A stretch of 64,000 bases of DNA from Asanoa hainanensis (lineage in GTDB: Bacteria > Actinomycetota > Actinomycetes > Mycobacteriales > Micromonosporaceae), in the NCBI RefSeq assembly GCF_900188485.1, contig NZ_FZPH01000015.1:124001-188000 (forward strand). Reading direction: 5' to 3'. Position 1 is the stretch's first letter; each line of letters begins with the position of its first letter. The translations under genes and the position numbers were made by a program. A model generated the notes under the pieces. That model was given only the letters and a program-made list of their open reading frames with translations, did not search any database and was not told the origin of the DNA. This document shows positions 6,860 to 50,992 of this stretch, piece after piece.

Positions 6860-6864
6860 CGGCC

Positions 6865-7563
6865 ATGTCGTTTCCGGTCGTCCTCCAGGACAGCGTCAAC
6901 CGGTTCGCACGCTCGCTCGAGGTGCCGCGGCGGCTGGTGAGCCTGCACCCGCGTACACCCGGAAACGCCGGCAACTTCTCGGCCCTGCCACCGGCGGTCG
7001 TGCTCGGGGTGATCTCCGCGTTCGAGGGCTTCGTCGAGGACTTCCTGGCGACGGCTTTACACCAGCGGGGGTACGGGCTGGGCCAGATCGCCCGCCGGGT
7101 GTCCATGAACAACCCGACGGTGGACGAGTTCTTCCGTCGCTGCGCCAACGAGTTCCCCGGGATCGGGGCGCGGCTGGCGGCCGGTCCGGGCGTCTCGGTG
7201 TGGAACGTGCCGGGGGTCGGCCGGCGCCCGCAGATCGAGACCGTCGACCTGGCCGAGCTGCGTCGCCGCGCCGACGGCTGGATGCAGGTGCGGCACTGCC
7301 TGGCACACGGGCTGGTCTCGGGGTGGCGGAGCGAGGTCTGGCCGGGCCCGCTGCGCGGCACCGCGACCGTGAGCAGCGTGCTGCGCCCACGCCCGGGCGG
7401 CCGGCACGCGATCGGCCTGATCGGAGCGATCTCCTGCGCCCGCATCCACCTGCACGGCGCCCGCCTGATCGCCGACGCCGTCGCGGCCGAGCTTGACACC
7501 GACCTGAGCTGGACGGCCCTTCCTGACTTCCCGTTGGAGAGATCTGTCGTACCCGGGCGCTGA
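6865..7563 (+). CDS. HEPN-like putative ribonuclease (RiboL-PSP-HEPN type)
   Basis: A 232-residue soluble alpha-helical protein. Seen: AFEGFVEDFLATAL near residues 52-65, an N-x-P step followed by a helical stretch, and near the middle of the second half the motif VRHCLAHG, giving R143-x4-H148. Known: HEPN ribonucleases of the RiboL-PSP/MAE_28990-like groups have this R-x4-6-H motif with a following G, and are common toxins or effectors in conflict systems. The ATG is taken because it lies 5 bp after the ATPase stop; an upstream in-frame GTG would overlap that gene by 34 bp. Position in the operon suggests a second effector or an RNA-sensing partner for the NLR-like ATPase. Catalytic activity is inferred from the motif alone. 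Confidence 0.68.
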   Translation: MSFPVVLQDSVNRFARSLEVPRRLVSLHPRTPGNAGNFSALPPAVVLGVISAFEGFVEDFLATALHQRGYGLGQIARRVSMNNPTVDEFFRRCANEFPGIGARLAAGPGVSVWNVPGVGRRPQIETVDLAELRRRADGWMQVRHCLAHGLVSGWRSEVWPGPLRGTATVSSVLRPRPGGRHAIGLIGAISCARIHLHGARLIADAVAAELDTDLSWTALPDFPLERSVVPGR

Positions 7564-7673
7564 TGTCGGTGTCCGATTGGCTGTGGTGGTTTGTCGGCTT
7601 GGTGGTTGCTCGCGATCATTGTGGAGTGATCGGCTAATCGCATCTAGTGACGGAGCGAGCGGGAGGCTGACGC
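7561..7673. repeat. Duplicated upstream region, copy 1
   Basis: About 113 bp before the first CHAT-STAND gene is closely matched by the region before the second one (12811-12926). Shared blocks include TGATGTCG, GTCCGAT, TTGTCGG, GGTGGTTGCTCG, GATCATTGTGGAGTGATCGG, GGGAGGCTGACGCG. It therefore moved with the coding sequence in the duplication. It includes the GGGAGG ribosome-binding site and a conserved inverted repeat. A weak -35 (TTGTCG) and -10 (GATCAT) with a 17-bp spacer are present in both copies. Confidence 0.85.
7613..7632. promoter_or_regulatory. Inverted repeat CGATCA-N8-TGATCG, candidate operator
   Basis: Perfect 6-bp arms with an 8-bp spacer TTGTGGAG, 41 bp upstream of the GTG start. 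The arms and the spacer are conserved at the same distance before the paralogous gene, except for one outer base. This conservation in a diverged upstream region argues for a binding site, for example autoregulation; the binding protein is unknown. Confidence 0.5.
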
Positions 7674-10600
7674 GTGGGTGTAGTGCTGCGGTTGACGCAG
7701 GCCGCAGCGGACGACGGTCAGCACCTGGTGACCACCCGCCTGACCGGGCTGCCGGACTACACCGAAATGTCGGCGACCAGCCGGTTCGAGTTGTCGATCA
7801 CCGACGAGGACCGGGAGCGCATCCGCTGGTACCTGGAAGACTTCCTGGAGTACCCCCTCGACCCGGCCCCGACCATCGCGGCCGATGTGGAGGCCCGGCT
7901 GGCCGAGATCGGCACCCGGCTGTTCTCGCTCGTGTTCACCGGGGAGGAGGCCCGCGAGCTGTGGGCCGGCGTCCGGGGACTGCTGCACACGGTGCGGGTC
8001 GAGGTCGCCTCCGACGTCGACGCGGCCGCGATGCTGCCGTGGGAGCTGCTGCGCGACCCGCGCACCGACCGGCCGGTCGCGCTGGAGGCCGCTGAGTACG
8101 TCCGGGTCAACGCCCAGCCGGCCAAGCGGGTGCCGCTGCCCACCGCGGACGATGCCGAGCGGCTGCGCGTGCTGTTGGTGATCTGCCGGCCGGGCGGGGG
8201 CGACGACGTGCCGTTCCGCTCGGTCGGCGCGCTGCTGCTGAAGACCGCGCAGACCCAGGAGATCCTCGACCTGACCGTGCTGCGCCCGCCGACGTTCGCC
8301 GCGCTGTCCGCGGTGCTGCACCAGGCCTACGACGCGGGCCGACCGTTCCACGTCGTCCACTTCGACGGGCACGGCACCTATCTGCCGTCGACCCGGCTAC
8401 GCGCGGCCGAAGGTGTCTCGGTCGGCCAGGCCATGTACGGCCTGCTGTCCCCGGCACGCGAAGGCAGCCACGGGTACCTGCTGTTCGAAGACCCGACCAC
8501 GACCAGCAACCAGCAGCTGGTCGACGGGCCGGCGCTCGGGGCGCTGCTGGCCCGCACCGGTGTGGGGGTGCTCGTCCTCAACGCCTGCCGCTCGGCGTAC
8601 GCCGAGGCGGCGGAGCGGCCACGCACGGGCCAGGGCGACGACGTCCACACGCAGGTACGCGGGTACGGGTCGTTCGCGCTGGAGGTCAGCGACGCGGGGG
8701 TCGCCGGCGTCGTGGCGATGCGCTACAGCGTCTACGTCGTGACCGCGGCCCAGTTCGTCACCGACCTGTACGCCGCACTGCTGGCCGGACGCACGCTGGG
8801 CGGGGCGGTGTCGGCGGGTCGGCGCCAGTTGGCCGCTGCGCCGAACCGGTCGATCGCGTTCGACTCGCGGCCGTTGCAGGACTGGTCGGTGCCGGTCGTC
8901 TACGAGACGGCACCGATGACGCTGGTGCGCGCGGCGTACGGCACGCGCGACGCGGTGCGCATCACTGTTGGCCGGTCGGGTTCCCGCTTGGCGGATGTCG
9001 CCGCCGCCGGGGTGCCGCCCGGCCCCGAGGTCGGGTTCTTCGGCCGCGACGAGACTCTGTTGGCGCTCGACCGGGCGTTCGACACGCATCGGATCGTGCT
9101 GCTGCACGCGTACGCCGGCAGCGGCAAGACGTCCACCGCGGTGGAGTTCGCCGGCTGGTACGCGTCGACCGGTGGGCTCACCAACCCGGCGAACGGCCAG
9201 CGCGGACCGGTGCTGTTCTCGTCGCTGGAGCAGCGGACGCCATTGGTGGCGCTGCTCAACCAGCTCGGCGCCGTGTTCGACCCGGCGTTGGAGAACAGCG
9301 GCATCCAATGGCTCAGCCTCTCGGACGCCGAGCGGCGGGACGTGGCCCTCCAGGTTCTGGCACAGATTCCGGTGTTGTGGATCTGGGACAACGTCGAGCC
9401 CGTCGCCGGGTTCCCAGCCGGCACACCATCGGCGTGGACCCACGAAGAACAGCGTGCGCTGCGCGATTTCCTCCACGCCGCATCGCGTACGCAGGCCCGG
9501 ATGCTGTTGACGTCGCGGCGCGACGAGCAGGGCTGGCTCGGCGACCTGCCCACCCGGGTGCGGCTGCCCAGGATGCCGATGCGTGAGCGCATCCAGTTCA
9601 CCCAGGCGCTCGCCGCCCGGCACGGCCACCGGATCAGCGAGGTCGAGGACTGGCGGCCGCTCTTGCGCTACAGCGACGGCAACCCCCTTACCATCACTGT
9701 CGTCGTCGGGCAGGCCCTGCGCGCCGCGTACACCAAGAAGGCCCAGATCGAGGAGTTCGTTGCCCGTCTCCGCGCCGGTGAGACCGACCTCGCCGACGCG
9801 GACGAAGCCCAAGGACGCTCCCGGTCGCTGGGCGCCTCGCTCACGTTCGGGCTGGAGGCCGCGTTCACCGCACCGGAGCGCGGCCAGCTCGCGCTGCTCA
9901 GCGTGTTCCAGGACACGGTCGACGTCGATGCCCTGGTGGGTATGGGTGAGGAGAACACGGGAACGGCGGTGCCGGCGTTGGTCGGGCTCACCCGGACTGC
10001 CGGGATCGACCTGCTCGACCGCGCGGCCGAGATCGGGCTGCTCACCGCACTCGGCGACGGCTACTACGCGATCCATCCGGCGCTGCCGTGGTTCTTCCGA
10101 CAGCTCAGCGCGATCGACGTGGACTCCGACGCGACGGCGCATTCGCAGGCCGCCTACATGGCCGTCATGGCCGAACTTGGCAGCGCCTACCACCGGTGGT
10201 ACAACCGGGGCCGCACCGACGTCGTCGACGTGCTGCGGTTGGAGGAGGCGAACCTGCTCCACGCCCGGGCCCTGGCCCGCGCCGCCGGCCGGTGGTCCCA
10301 GGTGGCTGGCTGCATGCAGGGCCTACAGATCCTTTACGGGCAGACCGGCCGCGCCGCGGAGTGGTCCCGCCTCGTCGACGAGCTCGTGCCGGACTTCGTC
10401 GACCCGGATACCGGCGGGCCACGGTCCGGCCTGGAACAGGAATGGGTCGTGCTCACGGAGTACCGGGTGTTCATCGCCCGCGCTGGCATGGCCTGGACCG
10501 AAGCCCTGCGGTTGCAACACTCCGTCGTCGAGCTCGCTACGAGCCGGGCCGCCGCGGCGCTCGACACCACTCCGGAACGGCGCACCGACCTGGACCGCAG

Positions 10601-40399: not shown

Positions 40400-41230
40400 G
40401 TGGACGCTCAACTGCTGGCGGAGTTCCTGCGGACCCGCCGGGCCGCACTCACCCCCGACGAGGTCGGCGTGGCGACGGCGGGCCGGCGGCGGACCCCGGG
40501 ACTGCGGCGCGAGGAGGTCGCGGCCCTGGCCGGCGTCTCGACGGACTACTACACCCGGCTGGAACAGCGGCGGGCCACGGCGGTGCCCTCCGAGGTCGTG
40601 GTGCGCTCGTTGACCCGGGCGCTCCGGCTGAGCCAGGACGAGCGCGACCACCTCTACCGCCTCACCGGCCACCCCGTTCCCGACCGCCACCAGGACCACC
40701 GGTACGTCGCCCCGGCGCTGCTCACCGCCCTCGACGCGCTGACCGACATGCCCGCCCAGGTCATGACCGATCTCGGCGACACGCTGGAGCAGAACCGCCT
40801 GGCCCGGGCCGTCTTCGGCCCGCCCACCGGGACGACCGTCGTCTACCGCTGGTTCTGCGAGCCCGGCGCGCGGAGCGGCTACCCGGTCGAGGACCATGCC
40901 GCGGAGTCCCGCGCGCTGGTCGCCGACCTGCGTGCCGCGGTGACCCGCCGCGACGATGCCCCGGCCCGGTCGCTCGTCGCACGGCTGGTGGCCGACAGCC
41001 CGGAGTTCGCCGCGCTGTGGAACCTGCACGACGTCGCGGTCCTGCGCCGGCGCCGCAAGCGGATCCAGCATCCCGGGGTCGGCCTGCTCGAGTTCGACTG
41101 CCAGTTCCTCGTCGACGAGGACCGCTCGCAGATCCTGGCCCTGTTCTCACCGGTGCCCGGCACCGCGACGGCCGAGCGGCTGACGCTGCTCGCCCTCGAG
41201 TCGTTCGTCGGTCACGCGTCCGCGGGATAG
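40400..41230 (+). CDS. XRE-family regulator with MmyB-like ligand-binding domain
   Basis: A 276-residue regulator. Seen: N-terminal HTH FLRTRRAALTPDEVG and PGLRREEVAALAGVSTDYYTRLEQRR, then a MmyB-like PAS-type domain (YVAPALLTALDALTDMPAQVMTDLGDTLEQN, WNLHDVAVLRRRRKRIQHPGVGLLEFDCQFLVDEDRSQIL). Known: such regulators bind fatty-acid-like or other ligands and control a divergent oxidoreductase. GTG start. It overlaps the end of modC by 19 bp tail-to-tail. Intact counterpart of the broken gene at 38.4-39.1 kb. Confidence 0.92.
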   Translation: MDAQLLAEFLRTRRAALTPDEVGVATAGRRRTPGLRREEVAALAGVSTDYYTRLEQRRATAVPSEVVVRSLTRALRLSQDERDHLYRLTGHPVPDRHQDHRYVAPALLTALDALTDMPAQVMTDLGDTLEQNRLARAVFGPPTGTTVVYRWFCEPGARSGYPVEDHAAESRALVADLRAAVTRRDDAPARSLVARLVADSPEFAALWNLHDVAVLRRRRKRIQHPGVGLLEFDCQFLVDEDRSQILALFSPVPGTATAERLTLLALESFVGHASAG

Positions 41231-42279
41231 GCGCGCGTCTCGGTGGCTTTGACTGCTGCCCAGACGCGCCGACCCGGGACGAGCTCGAGCTGCGCGGCGG
41301 CCGCCGGAGTGACGTCGGCGGCCGCGGCGATCGGCCCGTCGAGCTGGAGCCGCAGGTTGTCGCCGTGCCGTTGCACGGCGGTGATCGTCGCGGGCCAGGT
41401 GTTGCGCGGGCTGCCGGTCGGCTGGTCGAGGTGGACCGCGACCGCGATCGGGGAGAACGCGACGAACACGTCCCCGTCGACGGCGTCGGTGGTCGTCAGG
41501 GTCAGCCCGCCGGCGACCTCGACACCGCCGCCGGCTGCCCGGCCCCGGTAGAGGTTGAGGCCGACGAGGCGGGCCACGTAGTCGGTCCGTGGTTGGGCCG
41601 TGATCTGGGCGGCGTCGCCCTCCTGGACGACCCGGCCGCCTTCGAGGATGACGAGCCGGTCCGCGAGCACGAGCGCGTCGAGCGGGTCGTGCGTGACCAG
41701 CAAGGTCGCGCCGGGGTGCGCCGCGAGATGCCGGTGTAGCTCCGCGCGGGTGTCGAGGCGGGTGCGGGCGTCGAGTGCCGCGAGCGGCTCGTCGAGGAGC
41801 AACAGCTCGGGCTCGACGGCGAGGGCGCGGGCGAGCGCGACGCGCTGCGCCTGGCCGCCGGAGAGCTGCCGGGGCTTGCGGCGCGCGTGGTCACCCAGAC
41901 CCACCCGGTCCAGCCAGGCGGCGGCGACCACGCGGGCCTCCTTGCGGGCCGTGCCGTGGCTGCGCGGGCCGAAGGCGACGTTCTCGAGCGCGGTCAGGTG
42001 CGGGAAGAGCAGGTAGTCCTGGAAGACGACGCCGATGGGCCGGTGCTCGGGCGGCACCCAGCGCCGGGCCCGGGCGTCGTCGAGCTCACGGTCGCGCAGC
42101 CGGATGTGCCCGTCCGTCAACGGAACGAGCCCCGCCAGGGCACGCAGGGCGGTGGTCTTTCCGGCCCCGTTCGGCCCGAGCAGCGCGACGACCTCGCCGG
42201 GGTCGATCCGCAGGTGAATGTCGAGCCGGAAGGCACCCCGGTCGACGACGATGCGGCTGTCCACGAGGGGCGCGGTCAT
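41212..42279 (-). CDS. modC: Molybdate ABC transporter ATP-binding protein
   Basis: ATPase of the molybdate importer, 355 residues. Seen: Walker A GPNGAGKTTAL, Q-loop VVFQDYLLFPHL, signature LSGGQAQRVALARAL, Walker B LLLLDEPLAALD, H-loop VTHDPLDAL, and a C-terminal TOBE/Mop-like domain (about 290-350). Last gene of modABC: its ATG overlaps the modB stop (ATGA). Couples ATP hydrolysis to uptake through ModB. Confidence 0.94.
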   Translation of the reverse strand: MTAPLVDSRIVVDRGAFRLDIHLRIDPGEVVALLGPNGAGKTTALRALAGLVPLTDGHIRLRDRELDDARARRWVPPEHRPIGVVFQDYLLFPHLTALENVAFGPRSHGTARKEARVVAAAWLDRVGLGDHARRKPRQLSGGQAQRVALARALAVEPELLLLDEPLAALDARTRLDTRAELHRHLAAHPGATLLVTHDPLDALVLADRLVILEGGRVVQEGDAAQITAQPRTDYVARLVGLNLYRGRAAGGGVEVAGGLTLTTTDAVDGDVFVAFSPIAVAVHLDQPTGSPRNTWPATITAVQRHGDNLRLQLDGPIAAAADVTPAAAAQLELVPGRRVWAAVKATETRAYPADA

Positions 42280-43100
42280 GGCGCGGTGATCCAGCGGTCG
42301 CGGAGGGCGGCGAGGATGACCACGGACACCAGCAGCAGGATGAGGCTCAGCACGATCGCGCCGTCGAGGTCCTGTTCGAGGGTGAGGTAGACGGCCAGCG
42401 GCATCGTCTGCGTCTTCCCGGGGAAGTTGCCCGCGAAGGTGATGGTGGCGCCGAACTCACCGAGCGCACGGGCCCAGCACAGCACCGCACCGGCGGCGAT
42501 GCCGGGCGCGACCAGCGGCAGCGTGACGCGGCGGAAGGTGGTCCAGCGGCCGGCGCCGAGGGTCGCGGCGGCCTCCTCGAAGCGGGTGTCGGCACCGCGC
42601 AGCGCGCCTTCGACCGCGATGACGAGGAACGGCATGGCGACGAACGCCTCGGCCAGCACGACGCCCTTGGTGGTGAACGCGAACGTCAGCCCGAACGCCT
42701 GGTCGAGCCATTCGCCGACCAGCCCGCGGCGGCCGAACACGAGCAGCAACGCCAGACCCCCGACGACCGGGGGCAGCACGAGCGGCACGGTCACCAACGC
42801 CCGGACGATGCGCCGGCCGGGAAACTCGACACGGGCCAGCAGCCAGGCCAGCGGTACGCCCAGCAGCAGGCACAACAGCGTCGCGAGCGTCGAGGTCTCC
42901 AGCGACAGCCGCAGCGCGGTCAGGACCTGCGGGTCGGTCAGGCGCTGGGGCAGCGTCGCCCACGGTGCCCGGACCAGCAGGCCCGCCAGCGGCAGCACGA
43001 GGAAGGCCAGCGCGATGATCGCCGGGACGACCAGGACCGCGGGGGTACGGCCGACCCGCCGCCGGAACCGGGGGGCTCCGGCGGCGTCTGTGCGTGTCAT
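42276..43100 (-). CDS. modB: Molybdate ABC transporter permease
   Basis: Inner-membrane permease of 274 residues. Seen: about six helices, ABC permease coupling motif EEAAATLGAGRWTTFRRVTLPLVAPGI (EAA loop) and RALGEFGATITFAGNFPGKTQTMPLAVY, the molybdate/sulfate/thiamine permease signature. Its ATG shares one base with the modA stop (TAATG). Middle gene of the modABC operon. Confidence 0.95.
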   Translation of the reverse strand: MTRTDAAGAPRFRRRVGRTPAVLVVPAIIALAFLVLPLAGLLVRAPWATLPQRLTDPQVLTALRLSLETSTLATLLCLLLGVPLAWLLARVEFPGRRIVRALVTVPLVLPPVVGGLALLLVFGRRGLVGEWLDQAFGLTFAFTTKGVVLAEAFVAMPFLVIAVEGALRGADTRFEEAAATLGAGRWTTFRRVTLPLVAPGIAAGAVLCWARALGEFGATITFAGNFPGKTQTMPLAVYLTLEQDLDGAIVLSLILLLVSVVILAALRDRWITAP

Positions 43101-43906
43101 TACGGTGCCTGGAAACCAGCGTCTGTCAGGACCTTCTCGCCCGGGTCGGAGAGCACGTAGTCGACGAATGCCTGGGCGCCCGCCTTGTTGGGCGCGTTCT
43201 TCAGCACGACGATCGGGTAGTCGTTGACGGCCTGCGCCGACTCCGGGAACTCGACCGCGTCGACGCTGCTCGCGGCGGCCTTGGCGTCGGTGCGGTAGAC
43301 GAGCGCCGCGTCGACCTCGCCGAGGGTCACTTTGGACAGTGCCGCCTTGACGTCCTGCTCCTGGGTCACCGGGGTGACGGTAGTCCCCGACGCGGCGAGG
43401 GCCTTCTTGGCGGCCGCGCCGCACGGCACCTGCTCGGCACAGAGGGCCACCTTGACGCCGGCCTTGCTCAGGTCGGGCAGGCCCTGGATGCCCTTCGGGT
43501 TGCCCTTCGCGACCGCGATCACCAGTTGGTTCTTCGCGAAGATCGTCGGCTGCCCCTCGGCGTTGCCGGCGTCGGTGACGGTCTTCATGTTGGCCGGCGC
43601 CGCGGACGCGAAGACGTCGGCCGGCGCGCCCTGGTTGATCTGCGTGGCGAGCGCCGACGAGCCGGCGAAGTTGAAGACCACCTTGGTGCCGGGGTTGGCG
43701 GCCTCGAAGTCCTTGCCGATCTGGGTGAACGCCTCCGTCAGCGACGCCGCGGCGAACACGGTGATGTCGCCGGTGACCGCCGTCGAGCCGGGCGTCGGCG
43801 CGCCGATGCCGCCCGTCGCCTCGTCGCCGTTGCCGCAAGCGCCGACGGCCAGCAGGGCGGTCACCGCCAGGCCGGCCACGATTCCGCGTATCGAGCGTGT
43901 GATCAC
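43100..43906 (-). CDS. modA: Molybdate-binding lipoprotein
   Basis: Periplasmic-side receptor anchored by lipid, 268 residues. Seen: signal peptide with lipobox VGAC (Cys24), then TVFAAASLTEAF, FNFAGSSALATQINQGAPADVFASA, the molybdate-binding hallmarks (Ser residues and the ADVFASA loop), and VYRTDAKAA. GTG start preceded by AGGAGG 8 nt away; an upstream in-frame ATG lies before that site. First gene of the operon; molybdenum supply serves cofactor enzymes elsewhere. Confidence 0.94.
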   Translation of the reverse strand: MITRSIRGIVAGLAVTALLAVGACGNGDEATGGIGAPTPGSTAVTGDITVFAAASLTEAFTQIGKDFEAANPGTKVVFNFAGSSALATQINQGAPADVFASAAPANMKTVTDAGNAEGQPTIFAKNQLVIAVAKGNPKGIQGLPDLSKAGVKVALCAEQVPCGAAAKKALAASGTTVTPVTQEQDVKAALSKVTLGEVDAALVYRTDAKAAASSVDAVEFPESAQAVNDYPIVVLKNAPNKAGAQAFVDYVLSDPGEKVLTDAGFQAP

Positions 43907-44043
43907 GCGCTGGTCCTCCTTATTGTCAGAGCTGGGCACGACAGGCCGACGTTATCAGCCGCAACTGCCACCGGTGATCGCTATATGGGCTCGCTTTCGC
44001 GGCGAATCTAGCCTTCGTCAGCTCGCACCTGCATGATGGAACG

Positions 44044-45117
44044 GTGACCGCCGAGCCACCCACGGTGCGCGCCTGGGAGGCGCTCGACGGCGCGCAGGTC
44101 CAGCGCTGGTCCGAGGTCCTCGACGCGATCGCGGCGCTCCTGCCCGGCCCGCACAGTCGGGTCGTGGTGGACGGCCCTCCGCCGCTGGCGGCCACGGTGG
44201 CCGACCGCCTGGTCGACACGTTGCACGCCGTCGGGCAGCCGTGCGTACGCCTCACCGACACGAGCCCGGAAGCCGACGAGGACGGCTGGTGGGTCAACGG
44301 CGGCGCGCGCAGCACCACGGTCGCCGACGGCGCACGCTGGCGGTCCCGTCCGCCGCACGCGCCGTGGCACGTGGTCATCTGGCTCCGGTCGCATCCGGTG
44401 GCCCCGGGCGAGGACGGCACCGACGTCGTCATCGACCTGCACGACCCCGGCTGGCCCGTCATCCGCCACGTCGCACCCGGTCTCGACCCACGGCAACCGT
44501 GGTACGTGACGGAGAGCCGCGCCTTCTTCGGCATTCGCGCCGCCACCTGGGACAGCAGGTTCGGCGACGACACCGAGGCGTACGGCGCGGCGATCGCGGA
44601 GGCGGGCCTGCGGCCCGGGCACCGCGTGCTCGACGTCGGCTGCGGCACCGGCCGGGCACTGCCGGCGCTGCGTGCCGCGGTCGGCGCCGGCGGGGTCGTG
44701 GCCGGCGTGGACCTCACGCCGCAGATGCTGGCCGTCGCCGCAGACCGCGCCCGCGCGTCCTGCTCGGCGCTCGTCCTCGGTGACGCGCGCCGCCTGCCGT
44801 TCGCGGCCGACTCCACCGACGCGATCTTCGCCGCCGGCCTGGTCATGCACCTGCCGGACCTGGAGGCCGGGTTGGCCGAGCTCGCCCGCGTCACCCGCGC
44901 CGGTGGACGACTGATCGTCTTCCACCCGTACGGACGCGCCGCCCTGGCCGCCCGCCACGGCCGCGCGCTGACCCCGGACGACCCACTCGACCAGCGCCGG
45001 TTCGGTCCCGCCCTGGTCGCCACCGGATGGCGGCTCGACCGCTACGACGACCCACCGCACCGCTTCCTGGCCCTCGCCACCCGCGCGGTCGGTCAGGTCG
45101 TCGCCGCCGCCGCATGA
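44044..45117 (+). CDS. SAM methyltransferase with N-terminal degenerate kinase-like domain
   Basis: A 357-residue protein in two parts. Seen: residues 1-150 resemble an actinobacterial uridine-kinase-like P-loop protein, but the loop reads VVDGPPPLAATVAD with no GKT/GKS; it keeps VVIDLHDPGWPVIRHVAP, typical of that family. Residues 165-357 are a class I methyltransferase: VLDVGCGTGRALPALR, GVDLTPQMLAVA, FAAGLVMHLPDLEAGLAELARVTRAGG. Inference: the first domain is a dead kinase used for binding. GTG start. The end overlaps the next gene by 25 bp, tail-to-tail. Methyl acceptor unknown. Confidence 0.85.
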   Translation: MTAEPPTVRAWEALDGAQVQRWSEVLDAIAALLPGPHSRVVVDGPPPLAATVADRLVDTLHAVGQPCVRLTDTSPEADEDGWWVNGGARSTTVADGARWRSRPPHAPWHVVIWLRSHPVAPGEDGTDVVIDLHDPGWPVIRHVAPGLDPRQPWYVTESRAFFGIRAATWDSRFGDDTEAYGAAIAEAGLRPGHRVLDVGCGTGRALPALRAAVGAGGVVAGVDLTPQMLAVAADRARASCSALVLGDARRLPFAADSTDAIFAAGLVMHLPDLEAGLAELARVTRAGGRLIVFHPYGRAALAARHGRALTPDDPLDQRRFGPALVATGWRLDRYDDPPHRFLALATRAVGQVVAAAA

Positions 45118-46082
45118 CGACGCAGGGTCGTCTCCGGTAGGCCGCATTCCGCGGCGATGTCGCGCCAGGACCGCGGGACGCTCCGCCGGGCCGCGATGTA
45201 CGCGACGAGCGTGGGATAGCCGAACGCCTCCGCGACCGCGGCGGCCCGGGCGTCGGCGAGATGCCGCTTCGTGGCGTGCGCGACCGGGCGCAGCCCATGG
45301 TGGCGCAGTGCCGCGTGGACGGTCGTCGCCGTCACACCCGCCTCCAGCGCGATGGCCGAGACCGTGCGGTGTTCGTCGACGTGCCGGGCCCGCAGATAGC
45401 CGGCGGTGTCACCGAACCCGTGCGCGAGCGCCGCCGGCCTCAGCCGGGCGTCCGCGCGCAGCGGTGGCACCACGCCCGGCGCGACAGCGGCCAGCTGCCG
45501 CGACACCCAGTCCTTGTGCAGGCCCGCCTCGCGGCTGATCGCCGCCATGCTCGCGCCCCGGCGCAACCGGTCGGCGACGTACGAGGGAAAGTCCGCGAAC
45601 CCGAACCGGTCGGCGACCCCTGCCGCGACCCGCGCCATCCGGTCCGCGGCGGCGCGCCGGGTGCCCTCGGCCCGCGCCGCCCGGCTGATGCCCGCGAGCG
45701 TGCGCAACGTCTTGGCCCGGCGCTCGGCCGGCTGCCGCCGGCCCCGGGCGGCCGTGGCCGCCGCCGCGGTGAGCGCTCCGCTGCGCGCCCGGTCGTGGGC
45801 CAACCGCTGGGCCCGCTGGATCGCGGGCTCGACGGCGAACCGGGCCGTGAACGACGCCGCGCGCCGCTTGCGGGTGGCCTCGCCGGACAGGGGGTTGCTC
45901 AGCTCGAGCCCGAAAGCCGCGAGGTAGTCGGCCTTCGACCAGCCGTGCACGCGGATGTGACTGGCCACCGAAAGGAAGAAACGGCCACACAGGTGGCAGC
46001 AGACCCGGTCGCCGTCGGCGACCATCCGGCCCAGCGGAGCGTGGTAGCCGGTGCCGTCCGGAAGCCTCCCGACAGGCCGCAC
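45093..46082 (-). CDS. Ros/MucR-type zinc-finger protein with three HTH repeats
   Basis: DNA-binding protein of about 329 residues. Seen: CHLCGRFFLSVASHIRVHGWS, a C2H2 finger (C29, C32, H42, H46) of the Ros/MucR kind, followed by YLAAFGL; a basic, Ala-rich linker; and three repeats of about 45 residues, each with F-G-[FY] then Y-[VLI]-x-x-R and an HTH (ISREAGLHKDWVSRQL, IALEAGVTATTVHAAL, IAAECGLPETTLRRHA). Start at the GTG 8 nt after GGAGG; two further GTGs lie just upstream. A 9-bp inverted repeat is next to this start. Multi-HTH design suggests recognition of a long or tandem site. Target unknown. Confidence 0.78.
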   Translation of the reverse strand: MRPVGRLPDGTGYHAPLGRMVADGDRVCCHLCGRFFLSVASHIRVHGWSKADYLAAFGLELSNPLSGEATRKRRAASFTARFAVEPAIQRAQRLAHDRARSGALTAAAATAARGRRQPAERRAKTLRTLAGISRAARAEGTRRAAADRMARVAAGVADRFGFADFPSYVADRLRRGASMAAISREAGLHKDWVSRQLAAVAPGVVPPLRADARLRPAALAHGFGDTAGYLRARHVDEHRTVSAIALEAGVTATTVHAALRHHGLRPVAHATKRHLADARAAAVAEAFGYPTLVAYIAARRSVPRSWRDIAAECGLPETTLRRHAAAATT

Positions 46083-46097
46083 GCGCACCACCTCCGA

Positions 46098-46122
46098 CCG
46101 GTAGTCACTCTGAGACTACCGG
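46098..46122. promoter_or_regulatory. Inverted repeat CCGGTAGTC-N7-GACTACCGG
   Basis: Perfect 9-bp arms, loop ACTCTGA, in the divergent gap between the zinc-finger/HTH gene (16 bp from its start) and the PadR gene. It would lie on the promoter or leader of the former; binder could be either product. Confidence 0.6.
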
Positions 46123-46155
46123 CAGGACCTCCGGACCGGAAGCGGGTCCGGGCCA

Positions 46156-46161
46156 TAGGCT
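46156..46161 (+). promoter_or_regulatory. TAGGCT -10 element, leaderless start of padR-type gene
   Basis: TAGGCT, 7 nt, GTG. No ribosome-binding site in between. Confidence 0.45.
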
Positions 46162-46168
46162 GTGCGCC

Positions 46169-46690
46169 GTGGTCGACCTACCCCTCGGCACGTGGATCGT
46201 GCTGGCCCTCGTCGACGAGGCGCCGACGCACGGGTTCGCGGTCGCCGCGCTGACCGCCGAGGGTGCGGAGATCGGCCGCGCCTGGGCCATCCCGCGGCCG
46301 CTGGTCTACCGCTCGATTGACCGGCTGACCGAGCTAGGCCTGGTCGCGGCCCGGTCCACCGAGGCCGGCGCGCGCGGCCCGGTGCGGTCCATCGTGGCCA
46401 GCACCCCCGCCGGCCACGCCGCGGCCGCGGACTGGCTCGACCGCCCGGTCACCCACGTGCGGGACATGCGCTCGGAGCTCCTCGTGAAGATCGCCCTCCG
46501 GATGCGCCGCGCCCTCGGCCTCGGCCCCCTGATCGTTGCGCAACGCGCGGTCCTCACGGACGTACACGCCGCCCTGGACCAGCAACGCCGCACCGCGGAC
46601 GGCTTCGGCCGCGTCCTGCTGAGCTGGCGCACGGAGAACGCCCAAGCGGCCCTACGCTTCCTCGACGACCTCGACGACCTCGACGACTAG
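46169..46690 (+). CDS. PadR-family regulator
   Basis: A 173-residue winged-helix regulator. Seen: LPLGTWIVLALVDEAPTHGFAVAALTAEG, RPLVYRSIDRLTELGLVAARSTEAGARGPVRSIVASTPAG, the PadR N-terminal pattern, and a helical C-terminal part with LLVKIALRM and LLSWRTENAQAALRFLDDLDDLDD (the last residues from a short tandem GACCTCGAC repeat). Known: PadR proteins dimerise through the C-terminal helix and respond to drugs or phenolics. Ends 4 bp inside the MerR-redoxin gene, tail-to-tail. Target unknown; the divergent zinc-finger gene is one option. Confidence 0.87.
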   Translation: MVDLPLGTWIVLALVDEAPTHGFAVAALTAEGAEIGRAWAIPRPLVYRSIDRLTELGLVAARSTEAGARGPVRSIVASTPAGHAAAADWLDRPVTHVRDMRSELLVKIALRMRRALGLGPLIVAQRAVLTDVHAALDQQRRTADGFGRVLLSWRTENAQAALRFLDDLDDLDD

Positions 46691-47583
46691 CGCGGGCGGC
46701 GCTTGGTCAGCCACCGCAGCACGTCCAGGGCGTGTGAGGCCGGGTACGGGATCGGGTGGAAGACGTGCTCGATCACCTCGTCGGCGACGATCAGCGTCAG
46801 TCGTTTGTAGAGCGTCATGTCGCCGGCGGTGAAGGTGGGCAGGCCGAGCGCGGAGGCCAGGGTCAGGCGTGGGTCGGGGATCAGCGGGTACGGCAGCCGC
46901 AGGCGGTGCACGAGCTCGCGCTGGTAGCCGGTCGACTGTGCGGACAGCCCGTAGACCCGTTCCGCCCCGGCCGCGCGCAGCTCCGCGTGGTGGTCGCGGA
47001 ACCAGGCCGGCTGCTCCCCCTCGCCCAGCGCGCCGTGCACCTCGAGCAGGCTGTTGGGCAGGTCGACGCCGGGGCGACCGGTCAGCGGGTAGACGAAGAT
47101 GACGCTGCGTCCCGGGCCGAGCGCCGACAGGTCGACGGGCCGCCCGTCGGTGGCGTAGAAGGTCAGCTTGGGCAGGGCCCGGCCGACCAGGTCGTGCGGG
47201 TCGCCCGCGGTGGCGGGTTCGCCGGTGACCACGCGACCGGCGGCCGCATCGAGCCGGGCGTCGAGGGCGTCCCGCTGCGCGGCGAGCTTGCCGATGCGGT
47301 CCTCGATGGCGGTGATCGTGCCGCGGTAGGTCGCCAGCGCGGCCGCGCAGACGTCGGCCTCGTCCGACCCGGCGGCGATCGACTCGACGAACGGGCGGGT
47401 CTCCTCGACGCTGAGCCCCAGCGTCATCAACTCGCGGATCTGGGCGACCATGCGGACGGCGACCGGCTCGTACTCGCGGTAGCCGTTGCCCAGGCGCCGC
47501 GGCACGACCAGCCCGACCGACTCGTAGTAGCGCAGGGCCCGGATCGTCGTGCCCGTCCGGCGCGCCAGCTCACCCACCCGCAC
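46687..47583 (-). CDS. MerR regulator fused to cysteine-less redoxin domain
   Basis: A 298-residue fusion. Seen: MerR HTH (VGELARRTGTTIRALRYYESVGLV, then YREYEPVAVRMVAQIRELMTLGLSVEE), a coiled-coil linker, and from about residue 130 an AhpC/TSA-like redoxin domain (LPKLTFYATDGRPVDLSALGPGRSVIFVYPLTGRPG, WFRDHHAELRAAGAERVYGLSAQ, YPLIPDPRLTLASALGLPTF). Relatives have GCTPQSC before the FRDH motif; here it reads GEGEQPAW, so the peroxidatic and resolving cysteines are gone and the domain has none. Inference: a ligand or oxidant sensor without redox catalysis. GTG start, TAGCAT 7 nt upstream. Divergent from a methyltransferase-pdxH operon. Confidence 0.85.
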   Translation of the reverse strand: MRVGELARRTGTTIRALRYYESVGLVVPRRLGNGYREYEPVAVRMVAQIRELMTLGLSVEETRPFVESIAAGSDEADVCAAALATYRGTITAIEDRIGKLAAQRDALDARLDAAAGRVVTGEPATAGDPHDLVGRALPKLTFYATDGRPVDLSALGPGRSVIFVYPLTGRPGVDLPNSLLEVHGALGEGEQPAWFRDHHAELRAAGAERVYGLSAQSTGYQRELVHRLRLPYPLIPDPRLTLASALGLPTFTAGDMTLYKRLTLIVADEVIEHVFHPIPYPASHALDVLRWLTKRRPR

Positions 47584-47665
47584 GGGCCCGATGCTAAACC
47601 CGCACCCTGGGGTACGGGTCAAGCGGCTTGACCCGCACCCCGAGGTGCGGGTTTAGCGTCCCGGC
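47584..47665. promoter_or_regulatory. Back-to-back MerR-type divergent promoters
   Basis: The whole gap is nearly a mirror image. Plus strand: TTGACC (47628-47633), 19-20 bp, TAGCGT (47654-47659), ATG 6 nt later. Minus strand: TTGACC, same spacing, TAGCAT (47591-47596 on plus as ATGCTA), GTG 7 nt later. Each spacer holds a dyad (CCCGCACC-N4-GGTGCGGG on the plus side, a slightly degenerate one on the other), the long spacer plus internal dyad being diagnostic of MerR activation. Outer 13-bp arms CTAAACCCGCACC/GGTGCGGGTTTAG are exact, and the two -35 elements form a palindrome with 10-bp arms around one G. Confidence 0.78.
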
Positions 47666-48421
47666 ATGATCAGAGGCGACTTCGACTACGAGACCAACGG
47701 CCACGGGTACGCCCAGCGGCGGCGACCCGATCCCCGCATCGCGGCCATGATCCACGCGGCGCTCGGCAACGCCCGTACCGTCCTCAACGTCGGTGCGGGC
47801 GCCGGTTCCTACGAACCCGACGACCGCTATGTGGTCGCGGTCGAGCCCTCGGCCCGCATGCGCGCCCAGCGACCTTCGACCGCGGTGCCCGCCCTGGACG
47901 CCGCCGCCGAAGATCTCCCCTTCGACGACGACGCCTTCGACGCGGTGCTGGCGACCGTCACCGTGCACCAGTGGGCGGACCCCGCCCGCGGCCTGGCCGA
48001 GCTCCGCCGGGTCGCCCGCGGGCCGGTGGTCGTGCTCACCTTCGACGGCGACCTGCTCGACCGCTTCTGGCTCGCCGAGTACGCGCCGGAGCTGATCGTC
48101 GCGGAACGCCGCCGCTACCCGGCGATCGCCACCATCGCCGACGCAGTCGGTCCCGAGACGCAGGTCGTCGAGGTGCCGATCCCGATCGACTGCGTGGACG
48201 GCTTCACGGAGGCCTACTACGCACGGCCCGAGCGTTTCCTGGACCCGGCGGTGCGGGCCGCGCAGTCCGCGTGGGGCTTCGTCGACGCGCTCGCGACGGC
48301 CCGAGCCGTCGACCGGCTCAGCGGCGACCTGTCCTCCGGCGCCTGGGACGCCCGCCATGCCCACCTGCGTACCCAGCCGACCTTCGCGGGTTCGCTGCGC
48401 CTGATCGTCGGCCGGCCGTGA
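47666..48421 (+). CDS. Class I SAM-dependent methyltransferase
   Basis: A 251-residue methyltransferase. Seen: MIRGDFDYETNGHGYAQRRRPDPRIA, motif I TVLNVGAGAGSYEP, acidic AVEPSARM, AAEDLPFDDDAFDAVLATVTVHQW and RRVARGPVVVLTFD. Similar to the UbiE/COQ5-like small-molecule class. Leaderless start under a MerR-type promoter; stop overlaps the pdxH start (GTGA), so the two are co-translated. Acceptor unknown. Confidence 0.9.
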   Translation: MIRGDFDYETNGHGYAQRRRPDPRIAAMIHAALGNARTVLNVGAGAGSYEPDDRYVVAVEPSARMRAQRPSTAVPALDAAAEDLPFDDDAFDAVLATVTVHQWADPARGLAELRRVARGPVVVLTFDGDLLDRFWLAEYAPELIVAERRRYPAIATIADAVGPETQVVEVPIPIDCVDGFTEAYYARPERFLDPAVRAAQSAWGFVDALATARAVDRLSGDLSSGAWDARHAHLRTQPTFAGSLRLIVGRP

Positions 48422-49071
48422 CCGACGTCCGGACGTACCTGCGGGCCCTGCCGGTCTTCGCCGGACCGTTGCCGACCTTCGACCCGACCGAGGCGCCGCA
48501 GCGACCCGACCAGCTCTTCCTCGACTGGCTCACCCACGCGGTCGATGCCGGTGTGCGCGAGCCGCACGCGATGACGCTCTCCACCGTCGGCCCCGACGGT
48601 GCCCCCTCCGCCCGGGTCCTGATCCTCAAGAACGTCGATGAGCACGGCTGGCAGTTCGCCGTGCACGCCGACTCCCCGAAAGGTCAGGACCTGCTCCGGC
48701 GACCGGCGGCGGCGCTCACGTTCTACTGGCCGGCCCTGCCTCGACAGGTACGCGTCCGGGGACCGGTGCGTCCCGAGCCGGCCGAGCTCAGCGCCGCGGA
48801 TTTCCTCGCCCGCCCTGCCGGGTCCCGCGCCGAGGCCTCGCTCGGCCGGCAGAGTCAGCCGCTCCCGGACCGCCGGGACCTCGACCTCGCCGTCGAGCGG
48901 GCGACCGCCCGCGTCGCCGCCGAACCCGCGCTCGTCGATCCACGGTGGACGCTCTGCACCCTGGCGGCCGAGCAGGTGGAGTTCTGGCAGGGCGACAAAC
49001 ACCGCAAACACCTCCGGCTGCGCTACGCGCGCGACGCGGCCGGATGGAAACGGGACCTGCTCTGGCCCTGA
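48418..49071 (+). CDS. pdxH: Pyridoxamine 5'-phosphate oxidase
   Basis: FMN enzyme of 217 residues making pyridoxal phosphate from PNP or PMP. Seen: DWLTHAVDAGVREPHAMTLSTVGPDGAPSARVLILKNVDEHGWQF (FMN-binding and conserved RxxLLK-like RVLILK), NYRSPKG-like ADSPKGQDL, LTFYWPALPRQVRVRGPV, and the C-terminal signature EFWQGDKHRKHLRLRY. The usual WP-x-L-x-RQ-V motif is intact. GTG overlaps the upstream stop. A perfect hairpin follows. Placement under a MerR promoter with a methyltransferase suggests it is an alternative copy or a paralogue used with that operon; whether another pdxH exists is unknown. Confidence 0.88.
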   Translation: MTDVRTYLRALPVFAGPLPTFDPTEAPQRPDQLFLDWLTHAVDAGVREPHAMTLSTVGPDGAPSARVLILKNVDEHGWQFAVHADSPKGQDLLRRPAAALTFYWPALPRQVRVRGPVRPEPAELSAADFLARPAGSRAEASLGRQSQPLPDRRDLDLAVERATARVAAEPALVDPRWTLCTLAAEQVEFWQGDKHRKHLRLRYARDAAGWKRDLLWP

Positions 49072-49077
49072 GCGGCG

Positions 49078-49113
49078 ACGCGGGCACGGCCGGGAGGCCG
49101 GCCGTGCCCGCGT
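49078..49113. terminator. Bidirectional terminator, perfect 16-bp stem
   Basis: Arms ACGCGGGCACGGCCGG and exact complement, loop GAGG, placed 6 bp after pdxH and 4 bp after the convergent PHP-type gene. Serves both strands. Confidence 0.78.
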
Positions 49114-49117
49114 GTGC

Positions 49118-50992
49118 TCAGCTCACCCGGCGGTGGCGGGGAATGCCGCCCGCGGGGGTGTCGCGCAGCAGCCAGACCGGGTTGGACAGCGCGATCGGCG
49201 TGGCCGAGCCCGCCGCGCGCACCTCGACCCGCAGGAACGTCGGCGCGCTCGTGTCGACCTTCAGGTCCACGTATCCCCGCCGGAACTCGGCGGCGGCCAG
49301 GTCCTGGACGGTCGTGCCCGGCTCGGGCGTGGTGGGCCCGGCCAGGTCGACCGTGCCCCGCACCACGCGGACGGTGCCGCCGGCGGGCAGCTGGTCGGCC
49401 AGGATGCGCACGTTGCGCGTCCGCGCCCGCGAGACCGTGACCGAGCCCATCGGGGCCTCGCCGTCGACGAGCAGGCCGAGGGTTCCGGTGAACGCGGCGG
49501 GGTTGCCGAAGAACACGTTGCCCGACGAGAGCGACGGGAGCAGGTGGTCCAGGTCGCGGCTCTTGGAGTAGGCCCAGGTGACGAAGTTGGCCTGCTGGCC
49601 GAACCAGTCCTGGCCCGAGTGGTCGTCGCTGACCCCGGTGCCGGTCAGGAACAGCCCGTTGCGCGAGCAGACGTCCCAGACCTGCGCGTGGTGGTCCAGG
49701 TCGACGCCGCCGCGGCTCGGGTAGCCGACCTCCAGGATGTCCGCGCCCATCGCCTTGTCGGCGACGATCGACGCGGCGACCGAGGCCCGCATCGTGTCCT
49801 GCTGCGCGACCGGCAGCACGGCCGGGTTCGAGGTGCCGAAGGGATGGTTGTACGAGGCCAGCCCGCCGGCCGCGTGGATCATCTCGATGGCGGCGATCGC
49901 GGCGTCCGGGTCCGGGTCAGCGGTCGGCGTCGGCTGCGCGAACGTGGGCATGTGCAGCCGCGGCCCGTACCAGTTGAAGTGGGTCGGCTTGAGCAGTGAC
50001 ACCTCCATGCCCTGGTACTGCCGGACCGCCGGGAAGCGGTGGGCGTACCCGCGCATCAGCTCCGCCTGCTTCCGCAGCACGGCGTCCGCGCTCCGGGTGG
50101 GCCGGGTGATGCGCAGCAGGTCGAACCAGCCCTCGGCGCTGCGCCCGCGCGTGCTGACCGCGCTGAGCGTCAGGTTGGACATCGCGGCGTCGGCGGCCTC
50201 GATGTCCGGCCAGAGCCGCGCCAGGTCCTCCTCGGGCCGCAGCTCGATCGTGTTCCACCGACCCTGGCGGGCCGGCACGTGCACGGTGCCGGCGATGCCG
50301 TCGCGGGTGCGCGACCGGCTCTGCGTGCCGTCGACGACGTAGGTGAGCGTGTACTGGCCGGCCGGGCGGCCGTGGGTGGCGGGCCGCCAGCTCGTGGTCA
50401 GCGTCAGCGTCAGGTAGCTGTCCGGCGAGACCGACGCGGGGAACACGTCGACGGTGATCCGCTGGTCGTACACGGACCGCTGGTCGACGGTGTTGGCCGC
50501 CGAGCCCTTGACCCCGACCGACGCCGGTTCCCGACCCGCGGACAGTGCGGCGAGGTGCAGCGAGCCGGGCACGGCCGCGTCGCCGGGCGACGCCATGGCC
50601 GGGTCCCAGGTCACCTGGGACGTGGCGAGCGTGCCGGCCGACTGCGGGGCCCAGGTCCAGACGACCTTGTTGACGGTCTCGCTCGGCCCGGTCAGGTGCA
50701 GCACGTCGGGGTAGCCGTGCTCGGCCATCCGGAAGTCGTGCTCGGTCCAGAAGAGCACGTCGATGCCGGTCTTCGTGGCCTGGTCGAGGTGCCCTTCCAT
50801 GCTTCCCGTGCCCTCGCTCCAGGACGCGTGGATGTGCATGGCCATCGAGACGGTGTCCGGCCGCTTGACCGGCGGTCCGTCGTGGTGCGCTTCCGATGCG
50901 AGGGCGGGCTGCGGGCCGAGGGCCAGCCGTCCGGCGCTGAGCGCGGTGATCGCGGCTGCCGACTTCAGCACGCCGCGCCTTGACTGCGTCAC
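49118..50992 (-). CDS. Tat-exported PHP-type metallo-hydrolase (CehA/McbA-like)
   Basis: A 624-residue exported protein. Seen: twin-arginine motif SRRGVLK near residues 4-10 and hydrophobic stretch; metal-binding AMHIHASWSEGTGS and FWTEHDFR of the PHP fold; a large beta-rich insert (about 90-300) with jelly-roll-like strands; then GMEVSLLKPTHFNWYGPRLHM, YNHPFG and GTGVSDDHSGQDW, further metal ligands; C-terminal beta sandwich. GTG preceded by GGAG; an in-frame ATG lies 42 nt upstream. Known: CehA/McbA-like enzymes hydrolyse phosphoesters or carbamates. Substrate unknown. Confidence 0.87.
   Translation of the reverse strand: MTQSRRGVLKSAAAITALSAGRLALGPQPALASEAHHDGPPVKRPDTVSMAMHIHASWSEGTGSMEGHLDQATKTGIDVLFWTEHDFRMAEHGYPDVLHLTGPSETVNKVVWTWAPQSAGTLATSQVTWDPAMASPGDAAVPGSLHLAALSAGREPASVGVKGSAANTVDQRSVYDQRITVDVFPASVSPDSYLTLTLTTSWRPATHGRPAGQYTLTYVVDGTQSRSRTRDGIAGTVHVPARQGRWNTIELRPEEDLARLWPDIEAADAAMSNLTLSAVSTRGRSAEGWFDLLRITRPTRSADAVLRKQAELMRGYAHRFPAVRQYQGMEVSLLKPTHFNWYGPRLHMPTFAQPTPTADPDPDAAIAAIEMIHAAGGLASYNHPFGTSNPAVLPVAQQDTMRASVAASIVADKAMGADILEVGYPSRGGVDLDHHAQVWDVCSRNGLFLTGTGVSDDHSGQDWFGQQANFVTWAYSKSRDLDHLLPSLSSGNVFFGNPAAFTGTLGLLVDGEAPMGSVTVSRARTRNVRILADQLPAGGTVRVVRGTVDLAGPTTPEPGTTVQDLAAAEFRRGYVDLKVDTSAPTFLRVEVRAAGSATPIALSNPVWLLRDTPAGGIPRHRRVS

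Follow-up and report, generated by a model that had tools for sequence, protein, structure and literature searches.

How can a transcriptional regulator read a signal through a peroxiredoxin-like domain from which both redox cysteines have disappeared, and which genes would such a protein control? The question is raised by a locus of the soil bacterium Asanoa hainanensis (Micromonosporaceae; assembly GCF_900188485.1) in a 64,000-nucleotide stretch of contig NZ_FZPH01000015.1 (positions 124,001 to 188,000 of the forward strand), hereafter the window, to whose own numbering all unprefixed coordinates refer. Here, a gene fusing a MerR DNA-binding domain to a redoxin domain lies divergent to a methyltransferase-pdxH operon, and the intervening gap holds two operators in mirror arrangement. 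We consider it probable, with moderate confidence, that the fusion is an autoregulated MerR activator of itself and of a small enzyme set, in which a repurposed, noncatalytic peroxiredoxin domain senses a signal other than peroxide. Our confidence in the anatomy of the locus (architecture, operators, co-occurrence, cysteine loss, and selection, all read from sequence) is higher than that in the model as a whole.

A MerR regulator with a cysteine-poor redoxin domain

The regulator gene contains the following features:
46687..47583, minus strand: MerR-redoxin regulator of 298 amino acids, with GTG at 47583 and a stop ending at 46687 (translation and Pfam); MerR part at about residues 1-120 and redoxin part at about residues 126-298
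47347..47349, minus strand: codon of C79 (translation and model; aligned to a CadR cysteine)
47005..47022, minus strand: residues 188-193, site of both lost redoxin cysteines, now E188 and A193 (65-row alignment)

Pfam placed MerR_1 at residues 3-63 and Redoxin at residues 134-278 (numbering of P0001, whose start lies one residue ahead of the GTG). The MerR winged-helix domain scored above its curated cut-off (PF13411, 53.2 bits versus 21.6), and so did the redoxin domain (33.9 bits versus 26.6). An AlphaFold model built on an alignment of 45 fusions comprised a MerR-type region, a helix spanning residues 80-117, and a redoxin domain, with a mean predicted local distance difference test score (pLDDT) of 81.7 and a predicted template modelling score (pTM) of 0.57. 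In this monomer model, helix 80-117 corresponds to the long dimerisation helix that follows the DNA-binding domain. The redoxin part matched BCP/PrxQ structures in VIA-align with Z scores of 16.5-18.3 (root mean square deviation 2.4 and 150 residues aligned for the match at 18.3), and the best Foldseek E value was 2e-10; as modelled, the redoxin part keeps a peroxiredoxin fold. The VIA-align rows were filled by the redoxin domain, with no MerR structures among them, and the MerR half was placed by sequence, its best matches being CueR and CadR.

With CueR, CadR, and SoxR, the window regulator shares the winged helix, the dimerisation helix, and a dyad in a long promoter spacer, but it has no C-terminal metal loop and carries a full peroxiredoxin fold at its C terminus. 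BmrR, TipA, EcmrR, and SkgA follow the logic of a MerR domain fused to a large drug-binding effector domain, as the window regulator does; their matches to it fall in the MerR part, and its effector domain differs in having the peroxiredoxin-Q fold. Peroxiredoxin Q/BCP enzymes superpose on the redoxin part with the Z scores given above, whereas the window domain is part of a regulator and lacks both catalytic cysteines.

Relatives were gathered from whole genomes and from a contig search, in which the best 80 of 98 matches were taken and 24 of the 80, matching the MerR part only, were dropped. Contig-search and whole-genome loci, minus three duplicates, gave 60 distinct fusion loci. The alignment and tree comprised 65 rows, namely, the 60 loci minus L046, L107, L108, and L112 (broken) and L114 (truncated), plus 10 further fusions; L178, a duplicate of the L185 gene, and the incomplete L187 were left out. 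This survey of MerR-redoxin fusions for cysteines (65 rows) and neighbors (60 loci), suggested in an initial annotation of the window, revealed a lineage-wide loss and recurrent neighbors. Four cysteine positions occur in the fusions: C68 and C79 in the MerR part and columns 188 and 193 in the redoxin part. All four are occupied in 16 of the 65 rows, and four further rows, the enolase fusions described below, retain the redoxin pair only, C68 and C79 being gone. The redoxin pair is present in 20 of the 65 fusions and missing in 45, and these cysteine-poor fusions form one clade with support of 100/99. The peroxidatic column, E188 in the window regulator, lacks cysteine in 44 of the 45 members (L076 has one), and the resolving column, A193 in the window regulator, lacks it in all 45. 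The absence of both redoxin cysteines noticed in the initial annotation thus holds for the whole clade. A local reading error or a single mutation was rejected as the cause, since 44 of the 45 members lack both residues. Relatives that keep the cysteines, which had been expected to speak for such an error, do exist among the more distant fusions, but the close relatives also lack the pair. With the tree rooted on nine rows that we picked as the outgroup, the four-cysteine state is likely ancestral and the redoxin pair was likely lost once.

The initial annotation had also proposed that sensing cannot use classical peroxiredoxin chemistry, which agrees with the disappearance of both redoxin cysteines. 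It had overlooked C79, the only cysteine of the window regulator, which lies in the MerR part at the start of the dimerisation helix, as in metal- and thiol-sensing MerR proteins. Because this is the usual MerR sensor position, there is room for thiol chemistry in the MerR half.

Members of the cysteine-poor clade show 98-100% constancy at residues 163 and 165-176 and a fixed W194, and positions 188-193 drift and vary in length; residues 188-191 of the window regulator were modelled at pLDDT <50. R196, R261, and other residues are common to cysteine-poor and cysteine-bearing fusions, and R261, which may correspond to the peroxiredoxin active-site arginine, is invariant in an alignment of 45 fusions. 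Ratios of nonsynonymous to synonymous substitution (dN/dS) in 13 pairs ranged from 0.04 to 0.36 for the redoxin part and from 0.04 to 0.16 for the MerR part. By these measures, the cysteine-poor redoxin domain is under purifying selection, though less tightly kept than the MerR part. Fusion genes with broken reading frames occur at four of the 60 loci (L046, L107, L108, and L112), through either decay or draft-assembly errors. Another gene of the same genus, in G002 (L044:5868-6400, minus strand), encodes a redoxin with both cysteines and a short in-frame MerR remnant ahead of the domain; from its sequence, we read it as a decayed second fusion.

Of 81 genomes from genus g76 (presumably Streptomyces), 9 encode cysteine-bearing MerR-redoxin fusions, one of them incomplete (L187). 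These fusions have the same architecture and a related operator, and all 8 that were aligned retain C68, C79, and the redoxin pair; none of the three enzymes considered below (second enolase, methyltransferase, and second pdxH) was found within their 1.5-kb flanks. Their operators have a somewhat different sequence, and several, judged by eye, have a ribosome-binding-like leader. The window genome also encodes an HxlR-redoxin fusion (L003:1153-2085, on G000:C24; Pfam HxlR 77.7 bits, AhpC-TSA 47.1), matched over both parts by eight relatives in the family (L241-L248). Its redoxin domain is related, but HxlR replaces MerR, and the GCTLE cysteine is retained in 9 of 9 proteins, L247 having another five residues later. 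Since redoxin is joined to a second type of DNA-binding domain in the same genome, redoxin-bearing regulators, on sequence comparison, are a repeated design in the family, with the cysteine-less MerR clade as the odd one. In the open-access literature, outside which most subscription papers fall, no description of a MerR-redoxin fusion was found among the matches listed, judged by title and start of abstract.

Mirror operators and their co-occurrence with the fusion

Between merR and the methyltransferase gene lies a gap of 82 bp, which holds two operators as mirror images of each other:
47591..47622, minus strand: predicted merR operator/promoter, -35 TTGACC at 47622-47617, 20-bp dyad spacer, -10 TAGCAT at 47596-47591, 7 nt to the GTG at 47583
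47628..47659, plus strand: predicted methyltransferase-pdxH operator/promoter, -35 TTGACC at 47628-47633, 20-bp dyad spacer, -10 TAGCGT at 47654-47659, 6 nt to the ATG at 47666
47590..47660, no strand: whole mirror region, two 35-nt arms (47590-47624 and 47626-47660), 89% complementary with 1 nt between them

The two back-to-back MerR-type promoters with 19- to 20-bp spacers and central dyads described in the initial annotation were confirmed: the spacers are 20 bp with TANNNT as the -10 box and 19 bp if the -10 box is taken one base earlier. The pattern TTGACC-N20-TANNNT with a central dyad, which was derived from these two sites and those of relatives, matched only these two places in the window at ≤3 mismatches and nowhere in 100 shuffles, and the best 35-nt arm pair had 31 matches, with no more than 23 reached in 2000 base shuffles. 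A chance mirror repeat was rejected on these tests. No canonical sigma-70 promoter with a 16- to 18-bp spacer was found in 46600-49300, and no Rfam match at gathering score within 45000-50000. Both promoters look leaderless, as previously noted, because only 7 nt (GTG) and 6 nt (ATG) separate the -10 boxes from the start codons. Since the -35 boxes stand 5 bp apart, polymerase could probably not occupy both window promoters at once; this spacing is not fixed among relatives (3 bp in L060, 15 bp in L105 and L113).

The merR-side operator is kept at ≤2 mismatches in 58 of the 60 loci (the exceptions, L040 and L099, show none within this limit), and 57 loci have 6 or 7 nt between the -10 box and the start of merR, with 31 nt in L046. 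Among 150 genomes of the family, 23 encode a full-length fusion, and all 23 have the operator at ≤1 mismatch; the other two of the 25 operator-bearing genomes carry a broken fusion, namely, G031 (= L046) and G615, whose site coordinates and letters are those of the L112 genome. G036 and G031 match the regulator over the redoxin part only. The operator was found in 0 of the 125 sampled family genomes without an intact or broken fusion. Among 394 genomes of the class, it was found in three, the window's own and two others, in both of which it lies ahead of a MerR-redoxin gene, and the reversed pattern gave no match in the genome scans, including the 150 family and 394 class genomes. Operator and fusion therefore co-occur, and the operator is very specific. 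The earlier proposal that one regulator serves itself and the methyltransferase-pdxH operon is likely in view of this co-occurrence; activation itself is what we infer.

Sites at ≤2 mismatches in the 49 other fusion genomes numbered 76: 48 at merR, 15 at the methyltransferase, 4 at pdxH2 (the second pdxH), 5 beside the second enolase without merR, and 4 elsewhere. No gene was assigned to the three-mismatch sites in G003, G004, and G031 or to a two-mismatch site in G105:C3. Where starts were seen, methyltransferase and pdxH2 sites lie 6-7 nt ahead of the start codon; one methyltransferase site (G076) precedes a shortened copy, and one pdxH2 site (G078) has a shortened frame. The four sites elsewhere comprise two at a small frame in Nonomuraea, presumably gamma-glutamylcyclotransferase-like from its motif, one at a second MerR-redoxin gene, and one at nothing clear. 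Because the sites of relatives fall at merR, methyltransferase, pdxH2, and second enolase genes, the window's methyltransferase-pdxH operon appears as one of several recurrent targets.

Enzymes beside the regulator

Downstream of the plus-strand operator lie two genes:
47666..48421, plus strand: class I S-adenosylmethionine-dependent methyltransferase, 251 amino acids (Pfam; nearest solved structure 3ege)
48418..49071, plus strand: pdxH2, second pdxH-like flavin mononucleotide enzyme, 217 amino acids, with a 4-nt overlap with the methyltransferase stop

The operator precedes the methyltransferase in 15 of the 49 other fusion genomes. Homologues of this enzyme (E up to 1e-60) were found in 27 genomes out of 197 from the class, a count that includes the window genome, and also in 40 plasmid records, with differing neighbors in the three records opened; the nearest structure, 3ege, points to no substrate. 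By eye, 9 of 28 loci with methyltransferase homologues (L221, L222, L224, L226, L228, L229, L230, L232, and L234) have a different MerR domain in frame at the N terminus, and this methyltransferase family is therefore joined to MerR proteins elsewhere too.

PdxH2 carries both pyridoxine 5'-phosphate (PNP) oxidase Pfam domains (PF01243 and PF10590) above cut-off and passes the broader NF004231 (167.6 bits versus 129), and it falls below the TIGR00558 equivalog cut-off (157.9 versus 180 bits). Its nearest solved structures are PNP oxidases, with PhzG not far behind. The window genome has another pdxH at G000:C15, 42% identical. Each of the 16 genomes checked contains a pdxH, probably the housekeeping copy, with 37-43% identity to that of the window, and 8 of the 16 also have a closer copy (53-100%). 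As a second pdxH is present in the genome and closer copies occur in only 8 of 16 genomes, the copy in the window is an extra one. The tie to vitamin B6 put forward in the initial annotation stands insofar as pdxH lies in the operon; it is looser than proposed, because this pdxH is an accessory copy, and the commonest partner is a second enolase.

This second enolase (eno2) is divergent to merR in 24 of the 60 loci and fused to it in frame in 4; the methyltransferase is present in 15, pdxH2 in 7, and none of the three enzymes in 17. For 8 of these 17 loci, one of the three enzymes has a site elsewhere in the same genome, unlinked to the fusion. The operator is retained beside eno2, with no merR found there, at L153, L158, L163, L166, and L167. 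Apart from the four fusions, a site directly ahead of an enolase was seen only in the same-genus genome G002, where, by eye, a seven-codon frame overlaps the start of the second enolase. In L102, L103, L104, and L106 (at about 6001-8190), one frame of 729-734 residues encodes MerR, redoxin, and a complete enolase, which may be made as one protein or may re-initiate at an internal ATG; the hosts are three Catellatospora and one Phytohabitans. Seven genomes of the family have fusion frames of at least 736 residues, four of which are those read, by contig coordinates, and the remaining three are presumed alike. In the window genome, there is a single enolase and eno2 is absent.

We compared the nine best enolases with eleven eno2 proteins, the distant L151 and L152 being set aside. 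Eno2 retains most active-site motifs, SIEDP varying in 3 of 11, and has cysteines in GDDVFCT and GCGQIKTG in 11 of 11 (for example, L058, L062, L071, and L075); 8 of 9 housekeeping enolases lack those cysteines, and the ninth shares GCGQIKTG. Fixed differences between eno2 and eno1 include a change from HADSNVD to HADNPLD in the loop that follows the histidine and the cysteine near the GDD motif. A similar layout, with a regulator divergent from eno2, occurs in Streptomyces coelicolor, where SCO7639 was proposed as activator of the second enolase SCO7638; in the excerpt of that paper, the regulator family is not named and no redoxin link is shown (PMC9739823). PhoP was proposed as a possible repressor of SCO7638, according to an excerpt of another paper (PMC7244524).

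Elsewhere in the window, frames at 41212-43939 (minus strand) resemble the molybdate ATP-binding cassette transporter genes modC, modB, and modA, as named by eye.

Proposed mechanism and alternative explanations

In the model that we favor, a dimer of the fusion would occupy each dyad inside the over-long 20-bp spacer, and engagement of the effector domain would bend the DNA so that RNA polymerase could use the promoter, yielding leaderless mRNAs for merR and for the methyltransferase-pdxH2 operon. The peroxiredoxin-Q-fold domain may use its former peroxide pocket to bind a small molecule and relay this event to the coiled coil of the MerR part; such binding is the most likely role because both redox cysteines were lost, yet the domain is kept by selection. 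C79 may add a thiol input. In relatives, the same switch would serve the second enolase, this methyltransferase, and the second pdxH, enzymes that may answer one shared stress. A more specific version, which we put forward tentatively and hold to be rather unlikely, is that the PrxQ pocket, having lost its cysteines, accepts a small anionic molecule linked to glycolysis, such as an enolase ligand or inhibitor; in Catellatospora and Phytohabitans, sensor, activator, and regulated enolase would then form one chain of 730 residues, a whole feedback loop.

Several observations weigh against the favored model. The pTM of 0.57 leaves the packing of the domains unsure, and dN/dS of the redoxin part exceeds that of the MerR part in 12 of the 13 pairs. 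Three of five same-genus relatives lack the fusion, and the 17 loci without any of the three enzymes were seen with flanks of up to about 6-8 kb per side (less for some). All 24 divergent eno2 loci lack an eno2-facing site at ≤4 mismatches, so that control of eno2 there is only presumed. G003, of the same genus, retains the methyltransferase-side operator, and its merR has no site within 2 mismatches, indicating that mirror autoregulation is not obligatory. Finally, closer pdxH copies without a site occur both in genomes with the fusion (G096 and G097) and in genomes without it (G001 and G005).

The retention of C79, present in 44 of 45 cysteine-poor and 16 of 16 four-cysteine members, also counts against this model and underlies its strongest rival, in which C79 detects redox changes or electrophiles and the redoxin domain, without its cysteines, has a structural role only. 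C79 lies just before helix 80-117 and is aligned to a CadR cysteine, which we take to be the CadR sensor cysteine. However, L096 lacks it, and so do the four enolase fusions, in which the redoxin pair is retained; these proteins nonetheless have operators of the same kind. C79 is also a single cysteine, the usual three-cysteine metal site being absent, with no second or third cysteine in a C-terminal metal loop, and it stands opposite no cysteine in the four CueR alignments shown. Redoxin loop 163-176 is almost constant, beyond what a mere scaffold seems to need, and we consider this explanation possible but unlikely. More improbable, in our view, is a redoxin domain in decay, the protein now being a constitutive or purely DNA-occupancy autoregulator without a signal. 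The loss of both catalytic cysteines, the drift and variable length of 188-193, the four broken loci of 60, and the higher redoxin dN/dS would suit such decay, but the dN/dS values of 0.04-0.36, the near-constant 163-176, the newly fixed W194, and the full length of the domain in the 45 clade members that the tree includes argue for a domain in use.

The regulon could instead be a defense against a natural product that blocks enolase, with eno2 as a tolerant spare and the regulator sensing the compound or the resulting metabolite jam. The model compound would be SF2312, an enolase inhibitor from Micromonospora according to the excerpted source (PMC6863902), a producer genus belonging to the window's family. 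Eno2 adjoins or is fused to the regulator and differs from eno1 at the fixed positions described above, but the residues that this source names as contacting SF2312 seem, from motifs compared by eye, to be conserved in both enolases, eno2 is missing from the window genome, and pdxH2 and the methyltransferase would be left unexplained; we give this idea only a slim chance. Little weight likewise falls on a B6-centered circuit, in which the regulator would sense B6 vitamers or aldehydes and adjust pyridoxal 5'-phosphate supply. PdxH2 lies in the window operon and, in 4 of the 49 other fusion genomes, stands behind an operator of its own, but no more than 7 of the 60 loci have it close to the regulator, and it is a second copy, has no site in G001, G005, G096, and G097, and falls short of TIGR00558 with PhzG close behind the PNP oxidases.

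If the favored model is true, it illustrates how an antioxidant domain with catalytic activity, after fusion to a DNA-binding domain, can give up that chemistry and persist in a sensing role; what was once an enzyme seems to serve as a sensor now, and living relatives display both states as well as the loss itself. The regulator is tied to spare copies of enolase and pdxH, and its very specific operator offers a direct handle for hunting the signal. In the MerR-redoxin-enolase proteins, a glycolytic enzyme would then be joined to the very regulator that likely activates it, which is unusual.

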